A stretch of 21,499 nucleotides of DNA from a virus. The notes beneath the pieces were generated by a model, which searched no databases, had not been told where the DNA came from, and was given only the letters and a program-made list of their open reading frames with translations. Positions within the stretch are counted from its first letter, which is position 1, and the number at the start of each line of letters is the position of its first letter. The position numbers and the translations under genes are program-made. This document shows positions 2,274-12,911 of the stretch, piece by piece. The stretch is taken from positions 1 to 21,499 of IMG/VR virus record IMGVR_UViG_3300007640_000293. One strand, given 5' to 3'.

Positions 2274-2588
2274 ATGGTATTACTACAAATTGCGGAGAAA
2301 GCTTTAGAAACGTCTCCCTATAACTCTCTAGCCTATGGCGTCCTTGTTTCTATCCTTATCGTCGCTTGCGGCGCTCTCTGGCTAAGGCTACAGGCGGCGG
2401 ATAAGTTAGGTCGCGAAAACTTTGAAAAGCTAGCTGAACTGATGGCTAAATTCTTTGTTACCTTAGAGGATAGTCGCTTTATGACTGACGCTATAAAAGA
2501 GGGTAACTCCGACCTTAAGCACGTAGTAGAGAAATTAGAAAGGCTTATAAATGACTTTTATAAGAGATTTGATAAATTGGAAAAATAA
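2274..2588 (+). CDS. Small membrane protein, holin-like candidate
   Basis: A 104-residue protein with one clear hydrophobic helix (about residues 19-38, 'LAYGVLVSILIVACGALWLRL'). A charged, amphipathic and probably coiled-coil tail follows, with many Lys/Glu heptads up to the C-terminus. This topology (short N-terminus, one membrane helix, charged tail) occurs in small phage holins and membrane anchors, and the gene sits inside the late structural operon where lysis genes are common. No endolysin is next to it in this window, so a holin role is an inference only. Confidence 0.6.
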   Translation: MVLLQIAEKALETSPYNSLAYGVLVSILIVACGALWLRLQAADKLGRENFEKLAELMAKFFVTLEDSRFMTDAIKEGNSDLKHVVEKLERLINDFYKRFDKLEK

Positions 2589-2616
2589 TCCTTATGCAGA
2601 GGTTTCTAGCAAGAAA

Positions 2617-3015
2617 ATGAGCGCAGTAATAAAGGATCTAAGCAAAGGAACGACCGATAAGCTCGAGGCTTTCGTTTTTGCGGAGGTCTTATATAGGCTA
2701 TTTATGGAACAGAGCGACTCCCTTAACTTTATCTTTTCGCCGGCCGGAGAGATCATCTTAATTAATCCGGCCGTTACGAGGGCGCTAGGTTACGAGATCC
2801 GGGATCTCCGGCGCCGGCTCTTTATGTCCTTCATTCATCCAGACGACCTCGAGGAGACCTTAGAGGTCTTTAACAACTTTCGCCAGGGAATAAACTACGA
2901 ACCAGGTTTTACCAATAGATACCGGAAAAAGGACGGCTTATATATACCGTTAGAATGGCAAGCCAGTAAGCCTAATCCGGGCTCCTTCTTTTTTGGGACT
3001 GCAAAAATAAGATAA
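2617..3015 (+). CDS. Stand-alone PAS domain protein
   Basis: I choose the ATG at 2617 (A-rich leader gcaagaaaATG) over the in-frame ATG at 2551, which would overlap the upstream gene by 38 nt and add 22 residues. The 132-residue product is mostly one PAS domain, at about residues 33-132. The order is 'NFIFSPAGEIILINPAVTRALGY', the helix 'EIRDLRRRLFMSFIHPDDLEE', then two core strands ('NRYRKKDGLYIPLEWQAS' and 'GSFFFGTAKI'). This is the classic sensory fold that binds small ligands or mediates protein contacts. It has no kinase, cyclase or DNA-binding partner domain. It ends 1 nt before the Ig-like tail gene, so it is co-transcribed with virion genes. Domain recognition is strong; the role is unknown. 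Confidence 0.75.
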   Translation: MSAVIKDLSKGTTDKLEAFVFAEVLYRLFMEQSDSLNFIFSPAGEIILINPAVTRALGYEIRDLRRRLFMSFIHPDDLEETLEVFNNFRQGINYEPGFTNRYRKKDGLYIPLEWQASKPNPGSFFFGTAKIR

Positions 3016-3383: not shown

Positions 3384-5168
3384 ATGGCGGATATAATTTT
3401 AGATCTATACGACGAGGATGTTACCGTTACGATCCAGGATCCGGAGGAGATATCCTTAGAGATCCAGGATCCGGAGACGATCTCTATAAACGTTACAGAT
3501 AACGGATCTAAGGGAGATCCCGGAGATCCCGGCTTAAATTGGTTAGGCGACTGGGATAGCCTTGTTAATTACGTAGCTAAAGACGGCGTCTACTATCAAG
3601 GATCCTCTTTTGTCTGCAAGCTAGGTAATAATAATCAAGCGCCTTTCGAGGGCTCCTCCTACTGGGATATCGCCGCTAAAAAAGGGCAAGGATCTACGCC
3701 GAAAGGCGCCTATAATGCCGGGACCGGTTATGTCGTCGATGACATTGTAGAGTACGACGGGAGCTCCTATAACTGTATCTCTCCGACTACTGGAAACGCG
3801 CCGCCTAATCCTACTTACTGGGAGTTATTCGTTAGTAAGGGAGATCCGGGACCGGCCGGAACCGGCGTAACATGGCGCGGAGACTGGGCCTCCGGAGATA
3901 ACTACGCCGTTAACGACGCCGTCTTTAATAATGGCTCCGCTTTCGTATGTAATACGGCACACACTAACGAGGAGCCGCCGGATCCTAGCTACTGGGATCC
4001 CTTCGCAAGCGGCCTCCGCTTTCGTGGTGATTGGTCCGGAGTTATAGACTATAACTTAGGAGATCTAGCGAGATCCTCCGGGACGGTTTATATATGCGTC
4101 TTAGGCCACACTAACCAGGCGCCTCCTAATCTTACCTACTGGGAAGTATTTAGCGAGCAAGGATTACAAGGACCGGCCGGAAATGATGGAGACGACGGTT
4201 ATAGCGTTTTAGAGGGCGCCGGCGCTCCGGCTAATGGCTTAGGAATAGACGGCGATCATTATATAGATACTACTAACCGGATCCTCTACGTCGGGAAAGC
4301 CTCCGGCGATTGGGCTAACGCTACGCAAATACAACTAAGCCCAAGTCCTAACGGGACGAGAGTAACAGTCGGGACCAACTCTCAAAACCCTAACAGCGCT
4401 ACGCCGGTCGCTATTACTTTTAAGGGATCCTACGCCTATAAGGACGCCGGCGTTAATCATTCAACGTCTATTAATTCGGAGAGATTCTCTCCGGAGACTG
4501 GGAAAGGCGGTCGTTATACCTTTATTGCTTTTATTAACTATAACTCTCCGAGCGCTCCGAGGATCAATTTACATTTATACATTAGAAAAAACGGGACTAC
4601 AGATCTAGACGGCGACGGCGATAGCTTCGCCGGTTACTCTCGAAACTCCGGAGGATCTGAAACGTCTACCTGCTTCCTAATATGGTCCGGAGACCTCCTC
4701 GATACAGACTATATAGAGCTTATGTCAGAGCAGGGAGATACAGCCGGGAGCGTTTCTATTATATCTACCTCTTTTGCAGAATTTAACCAAAAGACTTTAT
4801 TAGAAAATCAAGCCGGCGGCGGCGGCTTCGGTTGGGGCGCTTGGCAGGACTTAACGATGAATACTGCTAATACGTGGAATGATTCGCATAATAACGCTCA
4901 ATACAGAATAAGCGACGACGGCGAAAACGTAGAGCTAAGAGGCGCCGTCCAAAGGACCGGGAGTATTGCTAGCCAATGTGCTACACTACCGGCCGGCTAT
5001 CGTCCTCCGACTGGCTTTAATCATCCGGCTTTTATAACTGCGAATAAATCTACACTAGGAACGGTCTATACTTGGATCCTCCCGACTGGCGAGATCTGGC
5101 AGACCGGTTATAGTGTAAATAATATATTAGAGTTAGGAGGCATTGTTTTTCAGACCTCCCGGACCTAA
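3384..5168 (+). CDS. Modular tail fibre / receptor-binding protein
   Basis: A 594-residue fibre. Residues 1-45 hold a repeated 'IQDPEEISLEI' strand. A collagen-like 'GDPGDPG' follows, then four CBM5/12-like modules of about 47 residues at roughly 52-97, 104-150, 160-207 and 211-256. Each carries the pattern 'G-D-W ... Y ... D.V...g..y.C ... P....YW'. A second Gly-Pro/Asp stretch lies near 260-272, followed by a jelly-roll-like region with 'GGRYTFIAFINYN' (about 335-475). The C-terminal tip domain (about 485-594, 'GAWQDLTMN...ELRGAVQRTGSI...LPAGYRPP') resembles tips of host-binding fibres. The modules suggest binding to surface glycans. It is the last gene of the left late operon. Confidence 0.8.
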   Translation: MADIILDLYDEDVTVTIQDPEEISLEIQDPETISINVTDNGSKGDPGDPGLNWLGDWDSLVNYVAKDGVYYQGSSFVCKLGNNNQAPFEGSSYWDIAAKKGQGSTPKGAYNAGTGYVVDDIVEYDGSSYNCISPTTGNAPPNPTYWELFVSKGDPGPAGTGVTWRGDWASGDNYAVNDAVFNNGSAFVCNTAHTNEEPPDPSYWDPFASGLRFRGDWSGVIDYNLGDLARSSGTVYICVLGHTNQAPPNLTYWEVFSEQGLQGPAGNDGDDGYSVLEGAGAPANGLGIDGDHYIDTTNRILYVGKASGDWANATQIQLSPSPNGTRVTVGTNSQNPNSATPVAITFKGSYAYKDAGVNHSTSINSERFSPETGKGGRYTFIAFINYNSPSAPRINLHLYIRKNGTTDLDGDGDSFAGYSRNSGGSETSTCFLIWSGDLLDTDYIELMSEQGDTAGSVSIISTSFAEFNQKTLLENQAGGGGFGWGAWQDLTMNTANTWNDSHNNAQYRISDDGENVELRGAVQRTGSIASQCATLPAGYRPPTGFNHPAFITANKSTLGTVYTWILPTGEIWQTGYSVNNILELGGIVFQTSRT

Positions 5169-5200
5169 TTTGATACATATTAGCTTAATCGCTATATTTG
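5169..5200 (+). promoter_or_regulatory. Bacteroidota-type promoter for the predicted small RNA
   Basis: TTTG (5169-5172) and TATATTTG (5193-5200) are separated by exactly 20 bp. This is a full match to the Bacteroidota sigma-70 pattern of a -33 TTG element and a -7 TAnnTTTG element. It starts within one base of the tail-fibre stop. Transcription would begin near 5205-5207 and run into the terminator at 5231-5280. Confidence 0.65.
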
Positions 5201-5205
5201 TCTAT

Positions 5206-5280
5206 TGTCTTATCCGGCCCTTTCGCCAATACCTCCGGCTAATTCATTTTGCTTAAAAAGCCTCTCCGGAGGTTTTTTTT
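5206..5280 (+). ncRNA. Predicted antisense small RNA against early-gene start regions
   Basis: Inferred transcript of about 75 nt from the promoter at 5169-5200 to the U-tract at 5273-5280. It has no sensible ORF. An unpaired 5' part of about 25 nt precedes a terminator hairpin with an unusually long 27-nt loop. Inside that loop, 5242-5259 is the exact reverse complement of 5336-5353, the start region of the next gene. Shorter stretches of the same loop complement the starts at 6057, 7503 (14 nt each), 8981 (13 nt), 6770 (12 nt) and 12677 (11 nt). This makes a base-pairing repressor of translation likely. Transcript ends and function are inference; the promoter, hairpin and complementarity are visible. 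Confidence 0.55.
5231..5280 (+). terminator. Rho-independent terminator with long antisense loop
   Basis: A perfect 8-bp stem pairs ACCTCCGG (5231-5238) with CCGGAGGT (5266-5273), followed by eight T (5273-5280). The 27-nt loop is far longer than usual and contains a small GCTT/AAGC inner stem. It would also end read-through from the tail-fibre operon. Confidence 0.75.
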
Positions 5281-5289
5281 ATGCCTCAA

Positions 5290-5321
5290 TTTGCAAAGTA
5301 ATTACCTAGTAATTACTTTTA
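5290..5321 (+). promoter_or_regulatory. Early operon promoter
   Basis: TTTG (5290-5293), a 20-bp spacer and TACTTTTA (5314-5321), one base from TAnnTTTG. The predicted start near 5327 leaves a leader of about 20 nt to the ATG at 5348. The palindromic operator 5295-5319 fills the spacer and overlaps the -7 element. Confidence 0.6.
5295..5319. promoter_or_regulatory. Operator palindrome O1 on the early promoter
   Basis: Perfect inverted repeat: AAAGTAATTAC (5295-5305), 3-nt spacer CTA, GTAATTACTTT (5309-5319). The core TAATTAC-CTAG-TAATTA recurs at 9918-9938 (16 of 17 core positions the same) and, more diverged, at 12867-12883. All three lie upstream of transcription units. Its place between the -33 and -7 elements suggests binding by a dimeric repressor. 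Confidence 0.65.
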
Positions 5322-5335
5322 AGGATTAATCTTAA

Positions 5336-5353
5336 TTTTTAAGCAAAATGAAT
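5336..5353 (+). promoter_or_regulatory. Translation start region, small RNA target (18-nt match)
   Basis: TTTTTAAGCAAAATGAAT contains the start codon (5348-5350) and is the exact reverse complement of 5242-5259. The core TTAAGCAAAATGAA is repeated at 6048-6061 and 7494-7507, with shorter versions at 6763-6774 and 8973-8985 and an ATT variant at 12668-12678. Confidence 0.7.
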
Positions 5354-5761
5354 ATTAACCAAAAACCGACAAAGGATCCGATAGGCTATCTCCTCCGGCC
5401 TATCGAGATCGAGGAGACCGAAGGAGTCTATAAGACTCATAAAGTAACGCTCGATACTGCTATAATAGAGAGAGCGGACGAGTTATTTTTTATTAACGGA
5501 CTCTCGAGGATCTCCCAGGCGATAGCAGCCAGGGACGAGGAGACGGCTAAGGCGGAGAGAGAATTACTCGAAAAGCTTATTATAGATAAGGGAGTATTTG
5601 TAGGGAGAGGCGCCGGCGAGGGATCCGCTAAGGCTGCAGTTTGGAGACGCTTTAAGGAGTCTAACTCCGGGATCCCGTTAAAATGTAATCACTTTTACCC
5701 AATTCATAAGAAAAGCAATGAAACAAGAAACGAAATCGAAATCGAAATCGAAATTAGCTAA
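5348..5761 (+). CDS. Early protein of unknown function
   Basis: A 137-residue protein, first gene of the early operon; I do not recognise the family. The N-terminal third is rich in Pro and Glu. The centre (about residues 36-82) looks helical, with 'RADELFFINGLSRISQAIAARDEETAKAERELLEKLI'. A Gly-rich 'GRGAGEGSAKAAVWRRF' stretch follows at about 87-103. The last ten residues read N(EI)4S because they are encoded by a tandem hexamer (5732-5755). The gene has its own promoter and operator and an 18-nt perfect match to the predicted small RNA around its ATG. It overlaps the next gene by 44 nt. Position suggests an early control or host-takeover protein, but the sequence does not show a function. 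Confidence 0.75.
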   Translation: MNINQKPTKDPIGYLLRPIEIEETEGVYKTHKVTLDTAIIERADELFFINGLSRISQAIAARDEETAKAERELLEKLIIDKGVFVGRGAGEGSAKAAVWRRFKESNSGIPLKCNHFYPIHKKSNETRNEIEIEIEIS

Positions 5762-6038
5762 GGGCGCAGCCGCTAAGGGCGCAGATAACGCCGGCGAGGT
5801 CCGGAGGTTTACTAATATCGTTTGGACTGGCGAGGACGCCGAAAATCCGCAACTCGTTAAGGCGCTCTTAAGGCGATCCGGCTACAAGGATCTTAACAAC
5901 CAAAAAGAGGCGGTTAAAATCGCCGTCGGTATAGTCGTAGATCTGCTTAGCGAGGATCCCGACTTTTTAACTAACCGCAAAAAACCAAAAACTAAGGCGG
6001 ATCCGGACTCCCAGGATAACGGAGACGCTCTCTATTAA
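5718..6038 (+). CDS. Early protein of unknown function with Lys/Ser-rich start
   Basis: A 106-residue protein starting inside the previous gene, in another frame, at an ATG with an A-rich leader (ataagaaaagcaATG). The N-terminus is low complexity: (KS)3K from the hexamer repeat, then a 13-bp DNA repeat (5757-5769 and 5772-5784) giving 'LAKGAAAKGAD'. The rest holds a compact domain, 'VRRFTNIVWTGEDAENPQLVKALLRRSGY...AVKIAVGIVVDLLSEDPDFL', then a polar tail. No family is recognised. Its start region lacks the full small-RNA target motif, unlike the genes on either side. It may depend on coupling with the upstream gene. Confidence 0.65.
   Translation: MKQETKSKSKSKLAKGAAAKGADNAGEVRRFTNIVWTGEDAENPQLVKALLRRSGYKDLNNQKEAVKIAVGIVVDLLSEDPDFLTNRKKPKTKADPDSQDNGDALY
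5732..5755. repeat. Tandem hexamer GAAATC x4 in a gene overlap
   Basis: Three exact units of GAAATC and one GAAATT lie in the region read by two genes. One frame gives (EI)4 and the other gives a Lys-Ser repeat. Unit-number slippage keeps both frames intact, so length can vary without loss of either gene. Confidence 0.8.
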
Positions 6039-6056
6039 TCTTAACCATTAAGCAAA

Positions 6057-6773
6057 ATGAAAGACAAAACAGCAAAGCAGCTAAAAGAGCTCGCTATTAA
6101 GGCGGTCTTTACGCTCGAGGAGACCTCTAAGGCGATCGACGGCCTTAGACAGTTAAAGCACCAGGCGACAGCGCTACGGGACAAAATAAGACCGAAGCTC
6201 GCCGGCGTCCTTCGGTCCTCTAATTGGCCGGAGGACGATAGCTTTTTTATTACCTACGCCGGCCGGCTCTATGGCTTCTATTACTACCTTAAGATTAAGG
6301 ATAGCGAGGAGCTTAAGAAGTTCCCAGGAACGAGAGAGCTAATCCCAGTATTAGGAGAGGTTAACTTATCTACTTACGCGGCCGATCCTAAAGACTTTCG
6401 AGAGGTCGAGGATCTCGATAACGAGGAGCTTAGAGAGACCCTCCTAAACTATATAAGGAACCTCGAAACGATCGAGGAGCTATCGAAAGACTTAGCGGCG
6501 AGGGATATAGATATAGACGCTATTAAGGGACGCTTAGCGGAGATAATTAGAGTCCTCCTCCCTCTTACCGTGCCAGATCTTAGCGCTTTTCTTAAAGCAG
6601 TAAAAGCCCAGGATATAGAGACAGAGGACGAGGCTAGCTTAATTATCGCCGGCGAGGTCTCTAATACGATCCTACATTATAGCCTTATAGGATCCGGATC
6701 TAATTTTGAGAATTATAGTATTAATTTTTACGGCGTCTCTGCGATGCCCTCACCAAACAAAAAAGCAAAATGA
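6057..6773 (+). CDS. Early protein of unknown function, helical
   Basis: A 238-residue protein; no family recognised. The first 50 residues are strongly helical and charged. The centre has an aromatic run, 'AGRLYGFYYYLKIKD' (about 67-81), then acidic helices (about 118-165, 'EDLDNEELRETLLNYIRNLETIEELSKDLAARDIDIDAIKGRLAEIIRVLLP'). The C-terminus ends in 'SPNKKAK'. The start region has the 14-nt TTAAGCAAAATGAA motif complementary to the predicted small RNA. The stop (TGA) overlaps the next start as ATGA, so the two genes are translationally coupled. Confidence 0.75.
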   Translation: MKDKTAKQLKELAIKAVFTLEETSKAIDGLRQLKHQATALRDKIRPKLAGVLRSSNWPEDDSFFITYAGRLYGFYYYLKIKDSEELKKFPGTRELIPVLGEVNLSTYAADPKDFREVEDLDNEELRETLLNYIRNLETIEELSKDLAARDIDIDAIKGRLAEIIRVLLPLTVPDLSAFLKAVKAQDIETEDEASLIIAGEVSNTILHYSLIGSGSNFENYSINFYGVSAMPSPNKKAK

Positions 6774-7411
6774 ACGAGACTAAAAGCATATTTCAAAGGA
6801 TATCAGATATTAACTCCGAGGTCGTCTATATACCGGCGACCGGCTTTAATGAGAACACTAATAAATATTACCGGAAAAAGGAGGATTTTTTTAACGTCCT
6901 ACAAAAGCCGATGGCTAGAGAGGGACTCGTATTAGTTAAGGAGGTAACAGCTTTCGAGGAGGCGCCGGCGCAAGTAGGGAGCAAGTCTGCTAACAGAGCT
7001 ACGCTAGCCGCTCGATTTTACCTTAAGAGCGAAGCAGGCGAGATCTATACGGACGTTATTGTTACTAAGCTAGACTTTTACGATAGCGGCTTTTTAGCTT
7101 GTATGTCCTTAGCGACCTCGAGAGCCTTAGAGGACTTTTTTCCTCTTCCTACGGATCGTCCGCCGGCTATTACGAAGGAAGTAACGGAGGATCTCGTTAA
7201 GCAGATCTACGAGGCGGAGAGAGGCGACCTAATGAAGATAGCGAAAGCTAACCTTAGCCTCGTTAATAATATCTACTTTCAAAAGCTAATGAAGGCGAGA
7301 GAGACGATCTTAAAGTTATCAGCTGCAGACCAGGCAACTATTAAAAAGGGATCGGAGATCTCCTCTCCTACTGCAGCTAAAGAGGTCGAGACGCCGGCGG
7401 ATCTGGCGTAA
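6770..7411 (+). CDS. Possible ERF-like single-strand annealing protein
   Basis: A 213-residue protein. The order of elements is weakly like ERF-family phage annealing proteins. It has an opening helix 'SIFQRISDINSEVVYIPATG', then 'YRKKEDFFNVLQKPMAREGLVLVKEV' (compare the 'y.s.edil..lkp.l...gL' pattern), a beta section around 'ARFYLKSEAGEIYTDVIV' and 'GFLACMSLATSRALEDFFPL', where ERF proteins have their 'g.a.tya.ryal...f' segment. Such proteins anneal DNA strands in phage recombination, which would suit the replication genes downstream. The C-terminus is a Lys/Thr-rich tail. Its ATG is coupled to the previous stop (ATGA) and carries a 12-nt complement to the small RNA. The ERF assignment is tentative; that it is coding is clear. 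Confidence 0.5.
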   Translation: MNETKSIFQRISDINSEVVYIPATGFNENTNKYYRKKEDFFNVLQKPMAREGLVLVKEVTAFEEAPAQVGSKSANRATLAARFYLKSEAGEIYTDVIVTKLDFYDSGFLACMSLATSRALEDFFPLPTDRPPAITKEVTEDLVKQIYEAERGDLMKIAKANLSLVNNIYFQKLMKARETILKLSAADQATIKKGSEISSPTAAKEVETPADLA

Positions 7412-7417
7412 ATCCAG

Positions 7418-7460
7418 GCGGAGCGGACGTCCGCTATTAGGTCCGCTCCGCTTTCAATTT
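7418..7460 (+). terminator. Strong hairpin after the early operon, terminator-like
   Basis: Perfect 11-bp stem, GCGGAGCGGAC (7418-7428) with GTCCGCTCCGC (7441-7451), and a 12-nt loop. It is followed by TTTCAATTT, a weak U-tract, and lies 7 nt after the stop at 7411. Confidence 0.55.
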
Positions 7461-7490
7461 GCCCCTTATCTATAATTTTCTATAACTTTA
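7458..7490 (+). promoter_or_regulatory. Promoter of the 7503 gene
   Basis: TTTG (7458-7461), 21-bp spacer, TAACTTTA (7483-7490), one base from TAnnTTTG. Expected initiation near 7496 would leave only about 7 nt before the ATG, so part of the conserved TTAAGCAAAATGAA motif may lie at the very 5' end of the transcript. Confidence 0.45.
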
Positions 7491-7502
7491 CCATTAAGCA
7501 AA

Positions 7503-8117
7503 ATGAAAAAGACTAACCACAAAACCGGAACTAACACAACTTGCACCAGAATTATAAACGATGCCGGGACCGTAGCTCTCCGGATCTATAAGACCGGAGT
7601 TAGTATAACTAACGCAACCGTAGGGAGCTCAAGAATTAACCGGAGCGAAGCTAACGCGATCGAGAGTCCTACAGAGACGGCGCCTACGAGGGAGGAGATC
7701 TCCTCCCTTTTCCGGGCTCTGGCATTTAATTTGATTGATAACAAGGACGGTTATCATATTAACAGAGGGACGCCAGTAAGAGCGGAGGAGTACGATAAGG
7801 AGAAAGAGGAGGCTAAGGCTATCTACAGCTTTTTAGACGACGAGGCGGCCTTACAGATTAACGAAAAGAGCGGAGAGCCGCTTATTATGACAGCGCCGGG
7901 AGGTCGCGTCTTTTACGACTTCTTTTCCTCCGGGGAATGGTTTATCGTAGGGCAAAATGTAGGGCAAAAGCGATATGTAGAGGAGGCTAAGGCGCATAAG
8001 TATTTTTCTAAGATTATGTTATATCCGGCTATAAAATATAAGTTCGTATCTCTGGCAGAATACGAGCGTATCTCTATGTTCTACATAGAGAAAGCCTTAA
8101 ATAATTTCTTTGCCTAA
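7503..8117 (+). CDS. Early protein of unknown function
   Basis: A 204-residue protein; no family recognised. The N-terminus is rich in Thr, Asn and Lys, with many short strands ('VALRIYKTGVSITNATVGSSRINR'). A segment 'TREEISSLFRALAFNLIDNKDGYHINRGTPVRAEEYDKEKEEAKAIYSFL' follows, then an aromatic stretch 'GGRVFYDFFSSGEWFIVGQNVGQKRYVEEAKAHKYFSKIML' (about 143-185). It has its own promoter, sits between two terminator-like hairpins, and has a 14-nt match to the small RNA at its start. This separates it from the genes on either side and suggests separate dosage control. Confidence 0.72.
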   Translation: MKKTNHKTGTNTTCTRIINDAGTVALRIYKTGVSITNATVGSSRINRSEANAIESPTETAPTREEISSLFRALAFNLIDNKDGYHINRGTPVRAEEYDKEKEEAKAIYSFLDDEAALQINEKSGEPLIMTAPGGRVFYDFFSSGEWFIVGQNVGQKRYVEEAKAHKYFSKIMLYPAIKYKFVSLAEYERISMFYIEKALNNFFA

Positions 8118-8130
8118 GTTTTCACTTGTT

Positions 8131-8162
8131 AAGGGAGCCTTCGCCGGGAGGACCCCTTTTTT
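8131..8162 (+). terminator. Terminator after the 7503 gene
   Basis: AAGGG (8131-8135) pairs with CCCTT (8154-8158). After a 2x2 internal loop, CCT (8138-8140) pairs with AGG (8149-8151). Six T follow (8157-8162). It lies 13 nt after the stop at 8117 and before the initiator gene. Confidence 0.5.
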
Positions 8163-8169
8163 AATTTTG
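8162..8169 (+). promoter_or_regulatory. Exact -7 element next to the initiator start
   Basis: TAATTTTG matches TAnnTTTG fully and ends 6 nt before the ATG at 8176. No good TTG lies 19-21 bp upstream, so this is a partial promoter call. If used, the mRNA would be leaderless or nearly so. Confidence 0.3.
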
Positions 8170-8175
8170 TATCTT

Positions 8176-9111
8176 ATGTCGAGACCTATTAAAAGAGACG
8201 CCGACTACGTCGCACACTCCGCACACTTACGAAACGCTAAGGAGATTAAAGCCCTCCGCTCGAGATATGGTCCGGAGGGCTACGGCCTTTATTGGATGCT
8301 ACTAGAAACGCTAACCGGGATAGAGGGACACCGGCTCGAATGGTGCGACCTACAGAGAGAGTTAGTCGCCGGAGATTTGGGAGCTACGCCGGAGGTCGTC
8401 GCTAATCTGGTTACTTACTGTATCGTTCTTAAGCTATTCTATCTCGAGGAGGAGGTTAACTCCGACGGCCTAACGCATTACCTAAGATCTCGTTATATCG
8501 AGGAGAAATTAGGTCCGCTATACGCTAAGAGAAAAGCAGACAGAGAGCGCCGGGATGCTAAGGCGGCCGTTGGATCTGCTAAGCAGATCTCCTCCCAGGA
8601 TCCGCCGCCGGTTATCGCTGCGATAACTACAGATATCGCAGCGATAACCCCAGATAACGCCGCGATAACTACACAAAGTAAAGCAAAGCAAAGCAAAGCA
8701 AAGGAAGAGGATATAAATATTAAGAGCGAAGAGGAGATCTTAAGCGAAGAAAGGAATATATTAGCGGAGGTTACAGAGGAGATCCGGACGCTACTTATTA
8801 AGCATAACTCTATCCAGGTCGCAGAATGGGAGGCGGCCGCTCGACGTTATAACATTGATGTTGTAACACTACAAAAGCAATTTTGTAATACTGTAATAAT
8901 TAAAGGATCTAGCCGGGAGAGACTCTCTCTAATAGCCGGCTTCGATCGCTACCTAACCGCAACTATAAGCAATAAGCAAAATGAAGAAAGCAGAAGAGAC
9001 AAAAACCCTACAAGATCTCCTAAGAGATCAACTCGCAAAAATGGACAAAGAGGAGGCGCAGCCGTCGCCGCCGATACCTCGCAACCAAAAACCGGAGGCT
9101 ATAAGCTCTAA
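8176..9111 (+). CDS. Replication initiator-like protein (DUF4373-type N-terminus)
   Basis: I start at the ATG 8176; the longer in-frame TTG start at 8110 would overlap the previous gene and add residues encoded by a terminator. The product has 311 residues. Residues 1-110 ('SRPIKRDADYVAHSAHLRNAKEIKALRSRYGPEGYGLYWMLLETL...') match the Lin1244/DUF4373 N-terminal domain, a winged-helix-like fold seen in phage and mobile-element initiators of Bacteroidetes. Residues 146-166 are three heptapeptide repeats ((V/D)(I/N)AAIT(T/P)) encoded by DNA iterons, then a (SKAKQ)-type stretch. The C-terminal region is helical and ends in a basic tail. The last 131 nt also encode the start of the AAA+ loader. Together they form a lambda O/P-like pair. 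Confidence 0.72.
   Translation: MSRPIKRDADYVAHSAHLRNAKEIKALRSRYGPEGYGLYWMLLETLTGIEGHRLEWCDLQRELVAGDLGATPEVVANLVTYCIVLKLFYLEEEVNSDGLTHYLRSRYIEEKLGPLYAKRKADRERRDAKAAVGSAKQISSQDPPPVIAAITTDIAAITPDNAAITTQSKAKQSKAKEEDINIKSEEEILSEERNILAEVTEEIRTLLIKHNSIQVAEWEAAARRYNIDVVTLQKQFCNTVIIKGSSRERLSLIAGFDRYLTATISNKQNEESRRDKNPTRSPKRSTRKNGQRGGAAVAADTSQPKTGGYKL
8613..8723. other. Candidate replication origin inside the initiator gene
   Basis: Three direct 21-bp repeats (8613-8633, 8634-8654, 8655-8675) differ from the first by three bases each. Each contains a dyad, ATCGC-N-GCGAT (AACGC in the third). Next come six AAAGN pentamers (8675-8704, four of them AAAGC), then an AT-only stretch (8711-8723). Iterons with internal dyads followed by an AT-rich tract inside the initiator gene is the arrangement of the lambda origin in gene O. 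The role is inferred. Confidence 0.55.
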
Positions 9112-9823
9112 GGCTACGCCTCCTCCTATCGTATTAGAGACGCCGGCCGAAAAGATCGCAGCCGTAAGAGAGATCCTCGCTAAGCATTTCCCAGGCTTCG
9201 AGATCGACGAGCATAACGGACCGGTTATAGACGCTATCTCTCTCTATATGTTTAATGATCCGGCTTTCGAGAAAATATCTCCGGAGATATGCGCTAACCC
9301 TTCGCTAAGAAAAGGGATCCTTATAGGAGGACCGGTCGGAACTGGTAAAAGCCTCCTCCTTAAGATCTTCGCCGATATCTCTAATAAGTTTAATCCTTTT
9401 CATGTTAAGCGCTATAGTTTCCAGTCTACGAGATCCGTAGTTGGAGAGTATAGAGATAAGCTCCGCTTAAAAGAGCCGGTTACATTGATCCGGGAGTTAG
9501 GCTTAAAGGACTTTCGCAAGCTTAACGACGGGACTAAGGAGCCTCGCTCTCGCTGCTTTGATGGGATCGGCGAAGAGCTAATGAACGGACCTATAAGAGA
9601 CTACGGTAATACGCTTAACGTATTTATGGAGATCCTCGCCGATCGTTATGATATGTTTATAGATCACGGTATGTTAACGCATGGCTCTACTAACTGCGAT
9701 GCCGGCGAGCTCGAGGAGTTCTACTCTCTCCGGATGCTAAGCCGCTTTCGACAGATGTTTAATAGCTTCGAGCTTAAGGGTAGAGATCGCCGGCCGGATG
9801 GCAAAATTATAAGGCTTATGTAA
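8981..9823 (+). CDS. DnaC-like AAA+ ATPase, helicase loader
   Basis: A 280-residue AAA+ ATPase. The Walker A motif GGPVGTGKS is at residues 116-124 and a Walker B-like CFDGIGEE at 192-199. A sensor 1 Asn in 'HGSTN' is at 234-238, and a candidate arginine finger is in 'RMLSRFRQMF' (251-260). The first 50 residues are a Pro/Lys-rich low-complexity lead. Its place behind a DUF4373-type initiator suggests that it loads the host DnaB-type helicase at the phage origin, as lambda P or DnaC does. The ATG has a 13-nt complement to the small RNA and lies inside the 3' end of the initiator gene, with a 131-nt overlap. The gene is followed by a good terminator. Confidence 0.78.
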   Translation: MKKAEETKTLQDLLRDQLAKMDKEEAQPSPPIPRNQKPEAISSKATPPPIVLETPAEKIAAVREILAKHFPGFEIDEHNGPVIDAISLYMFNDPAFEKISPEICANPSLRKGILIGGPVGTGKSLLLKIFADISNKFNPFHVKRYSFQSTRSVVGEYRDKLRLKEPVTLIRELGLKDFRKLNDGTKEPRSRCFDGIGEELMNGPIRDYGNTLNVFMEILADRYDMFIDHGMLTHGSTNCDAGELEEFYSLRMLSRFRQMFNSFELKGRDRRPDGKIIRLM

Positions 9824-9872: not shown

Positions 9873-9907
9873 ACGCCGGATCTAAAAGGTCTGGCGTTTT
9901 TTGTTTT
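9873..9907 (+). terminator. Rho-independent terminator after the replication module
   Basis: A 10-bp stem (8 Watson-Crick, 2 G-U) pairs 9873-9882 with 9888-9897 around the loop TAAAA, followed by TTTTTT-G-TTTT. It sits 49 nt after the loader stop. Confidence 0.8.
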
Positions 9908-9910
9908 GTA

Positions 9911-9942
9911 ATTGCATTATAATTACCTACTAATTATATTAG
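9911..9942 (+). promoter_or_regulatory. Promoter of the 9970 operon with operator O2
   Basis: ATTG (9911-9914), 20-bp spacer, TATATTAG (9935-9942), one base from TAnnTTTG. The operator palindrome TATAATTA (9918-9925), 5-nt spacer, TAATTATA (9931-9938) lies inside it and overlaps the -7 element, as at the early promoter. Confidence 0.5.
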
Positions 9943-9969: not shown

Positions 9970-11211
9970 ATGGCAAAAAAAATAACCCCTAACAAAAACC
10001 CCTTAAAAGCCGCTATCCGGGAGGATAGGACTAAAGTAACAGTTACAAAAGCCTACGAGCTTTTTAGGGATCGTCCCTACGTCGAGCGCTATAAGCCGTC
10101 TTATAATGTGGCTAGATCGGCGCTCGTCTTTTTTCACTTCCTTAGTATTACTTTCGCTTTCCTTTTTGTGTTTAGCTTCGTGCTTAATATGGTCTCCGGT
10201 CTCTCGATCGAGGAGATCTCCTACAAAAATAAGGATCTTATTTTTGTCGGGATCGCTGCAGTAATAACCGGCCTCCTCCTCGTTTTTCTTGAACTGGGAA
10301 AGGACGCCGTAGGTAAGGTCTTTATAGATATCTACTTAAAAGAGTCTCGCTTTCTATATGTCGCCGGCCTTTTTCTGGTAGTTATTATTAGCTTTTCCGT
10401 AGCTAGCTCGACTAACGGCGGCCTCGTCGTAGCTGAATACCAAAACAGAGTTAAGCCGGAGGAGATCTCCGACCTTAGCTCTATCTCTGCTAATTGGTCC
10501 GATAAGATCTCCCAGGAACGAGCGGAGATCGCCTCTCTCAGGAAGGATCCTAAAAACCTAGTCCGGGAGGGATCTAATATGGTCTTAGGATGGAATATTA
10601 GAGAGACGATCCAGGCTAAGGAGGCGAGAGTAGACAAGTATTTATCTTTAATGGATAAGGAGCAAGGGAGAGCGCACACTAAAAACCAGGAAGTTAAGCT
10701 AATGTCCTCGATAGATGTAGAGCAGTATAGGACCGTAGCTCTAATCGTCTCCGTAGCCGTCGAGATCGGTATTATCTTTTTACTAATATTTATCCGCCGC
10801 TTTTTCTATATGACTTTTAAGGAGATCGGATTAAGAGAGGATAAGGAGGAGGCGAAAAAAGCTAACTCCTCTCCTACCCTATCCGATAACCGGAGAGTTA
10901 GCCAGGTTAAAGAGCCGGCTAAAAACGGTAAAATTATACCGGGCGCCTCGACAAAAAAAATGACTATCCAGGATCCAGGATCCGAGCCAGGATCTTTAGC
11001 CAAGATAAGAGGTCTAGTTAATTTTAACGACCCTATCCAGTCTAAAGAATATAGCAAGCTCCTAAATTATGCCGATGTAGTAGCCAGTAACGACGCCGGC
11101 TTATCTATTGCGGCGATCGCTAAAGAGCATGGTATATCAGAGGGAACTGTTAAAAATATTAGGAAAATACTAAAAAAATACGCCGAAAATACTAAAGCCG
11201 TTATATCATGA
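9970..11211 (+). CDS. Membrane protein with C-terminal helix-turn-helix
   Basis: A 413-residue protein; no named family recognised. Three hydrophobic helices lie at about 49-73, 89-109 and 128-146. A long charged, coiled-coil-like segment follows (about 160-245), and a fourth helix at 254-276 ends in 'RRFFYM'. A cytoplasmic linker rich in Ser/Pro/Lys leads to residues 378-402, 'LSIAAIAKEHGISEGTVKNIRKILKKY', a clear helix-turn-helix of the type found in resolvases and LuxR-like regulators. This is the only recognisable DNA-binding motif besides the initiator. It could anchor phage DNA at the membrane or act as a membrane-bound regulator, including of operators O1-O3. The TGA stop overlaps the next start (ATGA). 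Confidence 0.75.
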   Translation: MAKKITPNKNPLKAAIREDRTKVTVTKAYELFRDRPYVERYKPSYNVARSALVFFHFLSITFAFLFVFSFVLNMVSGLSIEEISYKNKDLIFVGIAAVITGLLLVFLELGKDAVGKVFIDIYLKESRFLYVAGLFLVVIISFSVASSTNGGLVVAEYQNRVKPEEISDLSSISANWSDKISQERAEIASLRKDPKNLVREGSNMVLGWNIRETIQAKEARVDKYLSLMDKEQGRAHTKNQEVKLMSSIDVEQYRTVALIVSVAVEIGIIFLLIFIRRFFYMTFKEIGLREDKEEAKKANSSPTLSDNRRVSQVKEPAKNGKIIPGASTKKMTIQDPGSEPGSLAKIRGLVNFNDPIQSKEYSKLLNYADVVASNDAGLSIAAIAKEHGISEGTVKNIRKILKKYAENTKAVIS

Positions 11212-11725: not shown

Positions 11726-12592
11726 ATGTACTTTATTAAATCCAAAATTTTACTACTTGCGCTCCTCGTTTTTGCGGTTGGAGCCTTCGCCGTAGATTTC
11801 GACTTTATCGGATCCGGCGCCTCGAATGGGACTAAGACCGGAGGGACGATCGAGGACACTGTTACGGGAGCCAATATTACCGGCGCCGGATTTTCCTTTG
11901 TAAGTAAGCAGCTTTCCGGGAGTCGGGAGATCTCCGTTAAGATCATAGATCCCGGCGGTCCTAATACCTTAGCGCAGTCCGGACTTATGATCCGAGAGGG
12001 ACTCGATCCGCTCGCTCCTTATGTTTGCGCTTACGTTAACGGGAGTAATAAGCTACTCCGTATCTCTGCAAGATATTACCAGGGATCCGGGACGGCTATA
12101 GTATTTCAAAAAGTAATTCGTAAGGCTTCAAAATTTTGGCTTAAGATCGAGAAAGTCGGGCAACGCTGCGAGATATATATTAAATACAAAAATAATTGGC
12201 CTTATGAGTACCTAGACGCCGTCTACTATATGCCGGCCGGTCCTTATAGAGCCGGGATCGCCTCCGCCTCCGGAGTAGGCGTCTCTAACGAGACCTTTAT
12301 CTATAAGCAGTTTAAGACGCCGGCGATCGCTGCGAGGATCTCTCCGGCCTCCTCTGTTACTGCAGAGATTAAGGTTTATCCTAACCCTACTCCTGATCGA
12401 ATTAACTTAGATCTCCCGATAGCGCCTCTCCGAGTCCGGATATTTAATCCGGAGGGAAAGGTTATATTAGACGACCAGGAACCAGGGAGGACAAATAGTT
12501 ACGACCTTAGCTCTCTCCCGGCCGGCGCCTACTTTATCCGCGCCGATGGCTTAGATAATAAACTTTATATGAGAATTGTAAAAATCGAATAG
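11726..12592 (+). CDS. Secreted lectin-like protein with T9SS sorting domain
   Basis: A 288-residue protein with three parts. Residues 1-22 are a signal peptide (basic start, hydrophobic core, cleavage after 'AFA'). Residues of about 25-195 form a beta-rich domain with 'TLAQSGLMIREGLDPLAPYV', 'FWLKIEKVGQRCEIYIKY' and 'AGPYRAGIASASG', the pattern of concanavalin-like/DUF1349-type domains ('aGvMiR...', 'wlki.r.g......'). Residues 217-288 begin 'VYPNP' and include 'LRVRIFNPEGKVI' and 'LSSLPAGAYFIRA', ending 'MRIVKIE', the canonical type A C-terminal sorting domain of the type IX secretion system. The product should therefore be exported by the host and attached to or released from its surface. 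Possible roles are receptor masking, superinfection exclusion or glycan binding. It is bounded by its own terminator. Confidence 0.82.
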   Translation: MYFIKSKILLLALLVFAVGAFAVDFDFIGSGASNGTKTGGTIEDTVTGANITGAGFSFVSKQLSGSREISVKIIDPGGPNTLAQSGLMIREGLDPLAPYVCAYVNGSNKLLRISARYYQGSGTAIVFQKVIRKASKFWLKIEKVGQRCEIYIKYKNNWPYEYLDAVYYMPAGPYRAGIASASGVGVSNETFIYKQFKTPAIAARISPASSVTAEIKVYPNPTPDRINLDLPIAPLRVRIFNPEGKVILDDQEPGRTNSYDLSSLPAGAYFIRADGLDNKLYMRIVKIE

Positions 12593-12656: not shown

Positions 12657-12676
12657 ATCTCTAACCATTAAGCAAA

Positions 12677-12859
12677 ATTAAAACAGGAAAAAAAGCAGAC
12701 CTCCCAGTTATAGACCTCCCGGCTCTGGATATAGTTACGCCGATCTTTTGTCCTCGATATGGCTGCAGAAAAGTTATAGGACCAGATAGACAGAGGACCG
12801 GCGCTCTCTGCAGCTGTAAGAGGAGGCGAGTAAGACTCTCTCCAATAGTAACTTCGTAG
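12677..12859 (+). CDS. ATT-initiated small zinc-ribbon protein (or start-lost gene)
   Basis: A 60-codon plus-strand ORF with no ATG, GTG or TTG in frame. It begins at ATT (12677), placed exactly where the other early genes have ATG in the conserved start motif (ccattaagcaaaATTaaaac). The product carries Cys at residues 25, 30, 45 and 47 (C-X4-C-X14-C-X-C) in 'PIFCPRYGCRKVIG' and 'ALCSCKRRRVRLSP', a likely zinc ribbon with a basic end. Codon choice matches its neighbours. ATT is a known rare start (E. coli infC). Either this is a low-level ATT start or a gene that lost its ATG by one base. A minus-strand ORF over the same span lacks such support. Confidence 0.5.
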   Translation: MKTGKKADLPVIDLPALDIVTPIFCPRYGCRKVIGPDRQRTGALCSCKRRRVRLSPIVTS

Positions 12860-12866
12860 ATCTAAG

Positions 12867-12911
12867 TAATTACTAACTAATTGGTTTTTAAAGCGTTCTA
12901 AAGTATATTTA
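12867..12911 (+). promoter_or_regulatory. Promoter and operator O3 of the 12933 operon
   Basis: ATTG (12880-12883), 20-bp spacer, TATATTTA (12904-12911), one base from TAnnTTTG. The diverged operator TAATTA-CTAAC-TAATT (12867-12882) overlaps the -33 element. It matches 14 of 17 core positions of O2. The start would be near 12917, leaving about 15 nt of leader. Confidence 0.5.

Follow-up and report, generated by a model that had tools for sequence, protein, structure and literature searches.

The RegA protein of bacteriophage T4 is a translational repressor with many early phage genes as its targets, each bound at the start-codon region. In the phages P1 and P7, the antisense RNA c4 is encoded on the same strand as its target operon and just upstream of it. 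The title of a study cited in PMC8546580 describes c4 as a 77-base processed antisense RNA; it acts in trans (PMC8546580) and base-pairs with the ant mRNA in the vicinity of the ribosome-binding site, by way of a sequence that probably lies in loops (PMC12197685). IsrK of the prophage Gifsy-1 has its own promoter, a rho-independent terminator and a read-through mRNA that extends into downstream phage genes, and it pairs both in cis and in trans with the downstream leader (PMC4825925). The CI RNA of the satellite phage P4 is outlined in the same source as an antisense RNA that comes from an untranslated transcript and governs replication genes of P4 itself (PMC4825925). Among the RNAs of the Bacteroidota, GibS of Bacteroides thetaiotaomicron represses by pairing at start regions, has more than one target and carries an extended unstructured seed (PMC7366714).

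A candidate for a phage RNA of this kind lies in the 21.5-kb virus contig IMGVR_UViG_3300007640_000293, all 21,499 nt of which were analysed (hereafter the window) and which is a fragment, judged by its open ends. The genes that frame the locus are the following:

3384-5168: tail-fibre gene, with its stop codon at 5166-5168
5348-9823: early/replication block, which follows the portal gene and then the tail-fibre gene
Gene 6770, in block 5348-9823: Erf-like protein
Gene 8110, in block 5348-9823: replication initiator
Gene 8981, in block 5348-9823: DnaC-like loader

Downstream of this block are other genes, the terminase gene (14486) and the tail genes, and the gene order around the 179-nt gap at 5169-5347 therefore identifies the gap as the boundary between late and early genes. 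The portal and the terminase have distant homologues in Bacteroides, Cellulophaga and Flavobacterium phages, and it is these relatives and the promoter type that suggest a host among the Bacteroidota. The phage records yielded no matches closer than these to either protein and no homologue of the early genes. A genome scan with the terminase revealed no relative, and scans of IMG/VR with the proteins of 5348, 6057, 8981 and the portal gene returned a single match, the overlapping contig L006 (1-4447) of the same phage, whose portal is 100% identical and which stops short of the segment 5169-5353; L006 adds ~2.6 kb leftward of the window. The segment is thus represented by one contig. The protein of gene 5348 showed neither a family match nor a relative when an antirepressor identity was sought, as in the target operon of c4. 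Three other proteins of the window have recognisable features: a PAS-fold protein (Pfam PAS_3, E 5e-9) is encoded at 2551-3015, between the portal and tail-fibre genes; the protein of 11726-12592 combines a signal-peptide-like N-terminus with a C-terminal Por_Secre_tail sorting domain, which is unusual for a phage; and the protein of 9970-11211 has hydrophobic segments and, at its C-terminus, matches helix-turn-helix domains weakly (HTH_23, sigma70 region 4).

The gap begins with the elements of a short transcription unit:

5169-5200, plus strand: sRNA promoter TTTG-N20-TATATTTG, an exact match to the Bacteroidota type
5206-5280, plus strand: predicted RNA of ~75 nt, its putative ends taken from the positions of promoter and terminator
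5231-5273, plus strand: terminator form B, the one given in the preliminary description, with an 8-bp stem (5231-5238/5266-5273) and a 27-nt loop
5255-5278, plus strand: terminator form A, a 10-bp local hairpin (approximately 5255-5264/5269-5278) with a UCCG tetraloop and a U-tract

A full Bacteroidota promoter had been claimed for 5169-5200, and it proved to be the sole exact match to TTTG-N18-22-TAnnTTTG on both strands of the 21.5-kb window (consensus from PMC7366714), where ~0.05 exact matches per strand are expected in random sequence of equal dinucleotide make-up. Its first base directly abuts the tail-fibre stop codon. Promoter and terminator follow one another in the right order, with noncoding sequence in between. 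The terminator itself stood up to re-examination, whereas its 27-nt loop belongs to only one of two competing folds, the predicted balance of which varies with the assumed 3' end: the probability of form B is 0.75 for 5206-5280 and 0.27 for 5206-5285. Positions 5243-5254, the core of the sequence complementary to gene starts, lie outside the G+C stem in both forms, with partial weak pairing predicted; in form B, runs within this core pair weakly inside the loop, which, like the competition between the two folds, counts against an antisense function. A search of Rfam with the segment found no family at the gathering score, and c4 was absent even among the weak matches; a weak minus-strand match to STnc130, below threshold, was disregarded.

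Five genes of the early/replication block share a start signal to which this RNA is complementary, and a sixth copy lies further downstream:

5336-5353, plus strand: start region of gene 5348, the proposed primary target, 18 nt complementary
6048-6061, plus strand: start region of gene 6057, proposed target, 14 nt complementary
6763-6774, plus strand: start region of gene 6770 (Erf-like), proposed target, 12 nt complementary
7494-7507, plus strand: start region of gene 7503, proposed target, 14 nt complementary
8973-8985, plus strand: start region of gene 8981 (DnaC-like loader), proposed target, 13 nt complementary
12662-12682, plus strand: sixth copy of the extended motif, TAACCATTAAGCAAAATTAAA, with ATT in place of ATG

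The 12-nt block AAGCAAAATGAA, which occupies columns -7 to +5, is invariant in the starts of 5348, 6057, 6770, 7503 and 8981, and outside it only column -13 is invariant between -22 and +16 across the five ATG starts, the flanks being variable. No other gene of the window, late genes included, carries the block, and matches with up to two mismatches number 8 where 0.5 are expected. Bacteroidota starts are enriched in A at -3, -6 and -11 to -15 (PMC7366714), an enrichment that leaves the constant G at -5 and C at -4 unaccounted for. In two of the five cases (6770 and 8981), the block falls within the coding sequence of the preceding gene, which favours a role in RNA over a DNA promoter; a DNA promoter as the cause of the shared block is further disfavoured by its extension into codon 2. 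The extended motif had no match in IMG/VR and 22 scattered matches in genomes, mostly away from gene starts. All of the shorter complements listed in the preliminary description (14 nt at 6057 and 7503, 13 at 8981, 12 at 6770, 11 at 12677) are present, except that 12677 does not qualify as an ATG start. That copy is situated in a gap of 340 nt whose coding content is doubtful, with a 60-codon frame of intermediate codon likeness behind it, and could be a decayed start, an AUU start or a decoy for the RNA.

The complementary sequence occurs once:

5242-5259, plus strand: anti-start segment, with a core (5243-5254) exactly complementary to the invariant start block

The exact 18-nt reverse complementarity of 5242-5259 to 5336-5353, noted earlier, was confirmed; the window contains no other perfect inverted repeat of 18 nt (~0.07 expected), and the core spans exactly the invariant -7 to +5 block and no more. 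The A-tract expected in any terminator supplies four or five of the 18 matched bases, so that the independent match is nearer 13 nt. Likewise, the complements at the several starts are mutually dependent because those starts have one motif in common; the independent facts are the repeated start motif and its single inverted copy. The comparison of the RNA with phage starts against shuffled controls, proposed in the preliminary description, came out in its favour: of 29 tested starts, those of the five motif genes form the five strongest duplexes with 5240-5261 (-20.4, -16.5, -16.4, -15.5 and -14.2 kcal/mol), the top four beat all 2,724 background windows, and none of 500 shuffled segments equalled the observed best or summed value. 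Counting against the match, the pairing is A+U-rich and yields roughly -14 to -20 kcal/mol, from which the costs of opening are still to be deducted. In total duplex energy, the motif starts are also equalled by certain G+C-rich parts of the genome, and specificity therefore depends on the exact match to the start motif. The target specificity of the anti-start segment is well above chance, and complementarity to several starts at this level is what would be looked for in a trans-acting repressor sRNA, here a predicted RNA.

Between the terminator and gene 5348 lie a second promoter and a palindrome:

5290-5321, plus strand: predicted early promoter TTTG-N20-TACTTTTA, one base from consensus and missing from the preliminary description
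5295-5319: palindrome AAAGTAATTAC-cta-GTAATTACTTT, a likely operator, with perfect 11-bp arms over the promoter spacer and the -7 box

The combination of promoter 5290-5321 with the palindrome implies that the early operon probably has its own repressor-controlled promoter, although none of the genes in the window could be recognised as coding for a repressor. No copy of the operator accompanies the RNA promoter at 5169-5200. An operator-like palindrome, GTAATTACctaGTAATTAC, precedes three transcription units (5295-5319, 9906-9939 and 12864-12886), the later copies, upstream of 9970 and of 12933, having diverged. A further promoter-like sequence, TTTG-N21-TAACTTTA at 7458-7490, has TCAATTTGC in common with the 5290 promoter; its expected transcript would start inside the 7503 start motif and give a nearly leaderless mRNA.

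The two routes of transcription into gene 5348 are predicted to leave its start in different states. In a transcript that reads through the terminator, the core pairs with the 5348 start with a probability of 0.997 while the terminator hairpin stays intact inside this fold, and the start region becomes largely closed, with a mean probability of ~0.1 of being unpaired; in a transcript from ~5328, the same region stays ~0.65 open. The earlier suggestion that read-through mRNA could fold on itself and hide the 5348 start is thus upheld by the folds, with a folding z-score for 5240-5356 of -7.3, part of which comes from the terminator and the operator palindrome. The near-complete pairing, the start left only about 10% unpaired and the z-score would also suit an arrangement that acts in cis only, in which the inverted copy hides the first early start on late read-through, an RNA acting in trans does not exist or plays no part, and the motif is simply an early translation signal. 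The longest match does lie at the adjacent gene (18 vs 14 nt), although its extra bases include the terminator A-tract and so lend little weight to a dedicated cis target, and an exact promoter just before the terminator is left unexplained. We consider this explanation unlikely, though it is the best of the alternatives.

Promoter, terminator and early gene stand in series on one strand, two alternative stems are available and IsrK offers a precedent (PMC4825925), all of which would fit a leader whose terminator serves as an attenuator. Promoter 5169-5200 would then also serve the early operon, as its second promoter, with the short RNA as a by-product, and the inverted repeat would tune read-through or translation, much as in the P4 and IsrK leaders. 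Since each of the two stems runs into the U-tract, there is no antiterminator among them; the early operon has its own predicted promoter and operator downstream of the terminator; and the complementarity to four further starts has no place in such a scheme. This explanation appears improbable.

About as improbable is an origin of the copy as a relic or by chance, either as what remains of the start signal of a gene since lost or inverted, or as an accident picked out of the window, which was scanned by eye for oddities and hence with some selection. On the minus strand the copy does read as start motif, ATG, AAT and TAG, a two-codon frame; with two codons and no minus-strand promoter nearby, a gene start at this position was rejected. 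In simulated 179-nt intergenic gaps, the core 12-mer arose with a frequency of 0 to 5e-5 depending on composition (at most 5 in 100,000), and any 13-mer antisense to any start in 0.4-0.8% of gaps of the same length. A survey of 83 other phage sequences and the window (901 kb, 5,988 candidate starts), most of them from an alignment-based terminase scan, showed an inverted copy of at least 13 nt, upstream and on the same strand, at no start other than 5348, so that the arrangement is absent from the ~6,000 starts elsewhere; an A+T-rich 11-mer in Flavobacterium phage 11b was taken as chance. A DNA pattern search for an anti-start sequence with a terminator gave no match. Inverted start copies around a T-run gave two (L007 and L008), which represent a single locus, close to a repressor-like gene in an unrelated phage, and were likewise attributed to chance. 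The position of the copy between an exact promoter and a terminator also argues against a relic. Finally, perfect 18-bp inverted repeats on both sides of the early promoter might be recombination sites that flip the 76-bp segment with terminator and promoter, a most implausible reading given that no recombinase was recognised in the window and that the repeat is the shared start motif, found elsewhere at starts only in direct orientation.

The reading that we rather favour is that of an antisense RNA that keeps ribosomes off the shared start block, acting in trans on the mRNAs of five genes and in cis on transcripts that read through. The segment 5169-5353 would then form a compact RNA-based control region, set between the late operon and the early operon in a phage of the Bacteroidota. 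Its first promoter, of the host type and lacking the early operator, would produce an RNA of ~75 nt ending at the intrinsic terminator, of which an exposed stretch of 12-15 nt would pair with -7 to +5 of 5348, 6057, 6770, 7503 and 8981. Pairing at the start block would prevent ribosome binding on all five genes in trans; in cis, transcripts running past the terminator would fold onto the 5348 start and conceal it, and an open 5348 start would be found only on transcripts from the operator-controlled early promoter at 5290-5321. All of the elements, the invariant motif, the above-chance complementarity and the predicted folds can be read from the sequence, from which we infer the production of the RNA and the repression of translation by pairing. 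One RNA silencing early and replication genes together, as first suggested, agrees with the anatomy of the locus and the above-chance match for the five ATG starts, and no longer extends to 12677. Shut-off when late transcription takes over appears to be one of several possible timings, and constant expression for immunity would fit the layout equally well: an RNA promoter without operator beside an early promoter with operator allows both purposes, immunity and post-early shut-off. In the former case, a constantly made RNA might stop leaky early translation, as with c4.

Location on the same strand, put forward in the preliminary description as a distinction, is not new, since c4 of P1/P7, CI RNA of P4 and IsrK of Gifsy-1 are all same-strand precedents; oop- and sar-type cis-antisense RNAs lie opposite their targets, and the phage RNA does not. 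It resembles c4 in that 5242-5259 complements the downstream start region 5336-5353 on the same strand. However, c4 serves one target operon (icd/ant) and is processed from the operon transcript, whereas five starts carry the complementary block here and a dedicated promoter and terminator are predicted; the phage RNA also gave no match in sequence and structure to the c4 family model in the Rfam search. The closest layout is that of IsrK, with its own promoter and intrinsic terminator, which are predicted from sequence in the present case. In trans, IsrK activates anrP translation by opening structure; the phage RNA has several candidate targets and is complementary to the start codon itself, so repression is predicted, unlike for IsrK. 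P4 CI causes transcription to terminate prematurely, by means of seqA and seqC, whereas the complement here is a translation start. GibS, likened by description, is also a Bacteroidota RNA that pairs at start regions and counts in favour of the antisense reading, but it is a host RNA with metabolic targets. As no Rfam family matched, the phage RNA is not filed as a member of c4, CI or IsrK, and its best reading is a c4/IsrK-like antisense RNA widened to a gene group. RNAs of the c4, CI and IsrK type control one gene or operon, often an antirepressor; the phage RNA would differ in having a target group defined by one repeated start block. If true, this would be a group-wide translational switch operated by one short RNA, of simple design (one common start block and one mirror copy), and a case of RNA control within a phage of the Bacteroidota, a phylum without classical Shine-Dalgarno starts. 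The fullest version, a little short of an even chance in our estimate, is that the common 12-nt start signal lets one 75-nt RNA silence all of these genes in trans and lock read-through in cis, an RNA-run start-codon regulon that would be the counterpart of T4 RegA, with RNA as the proposed repressor in place of a protein.
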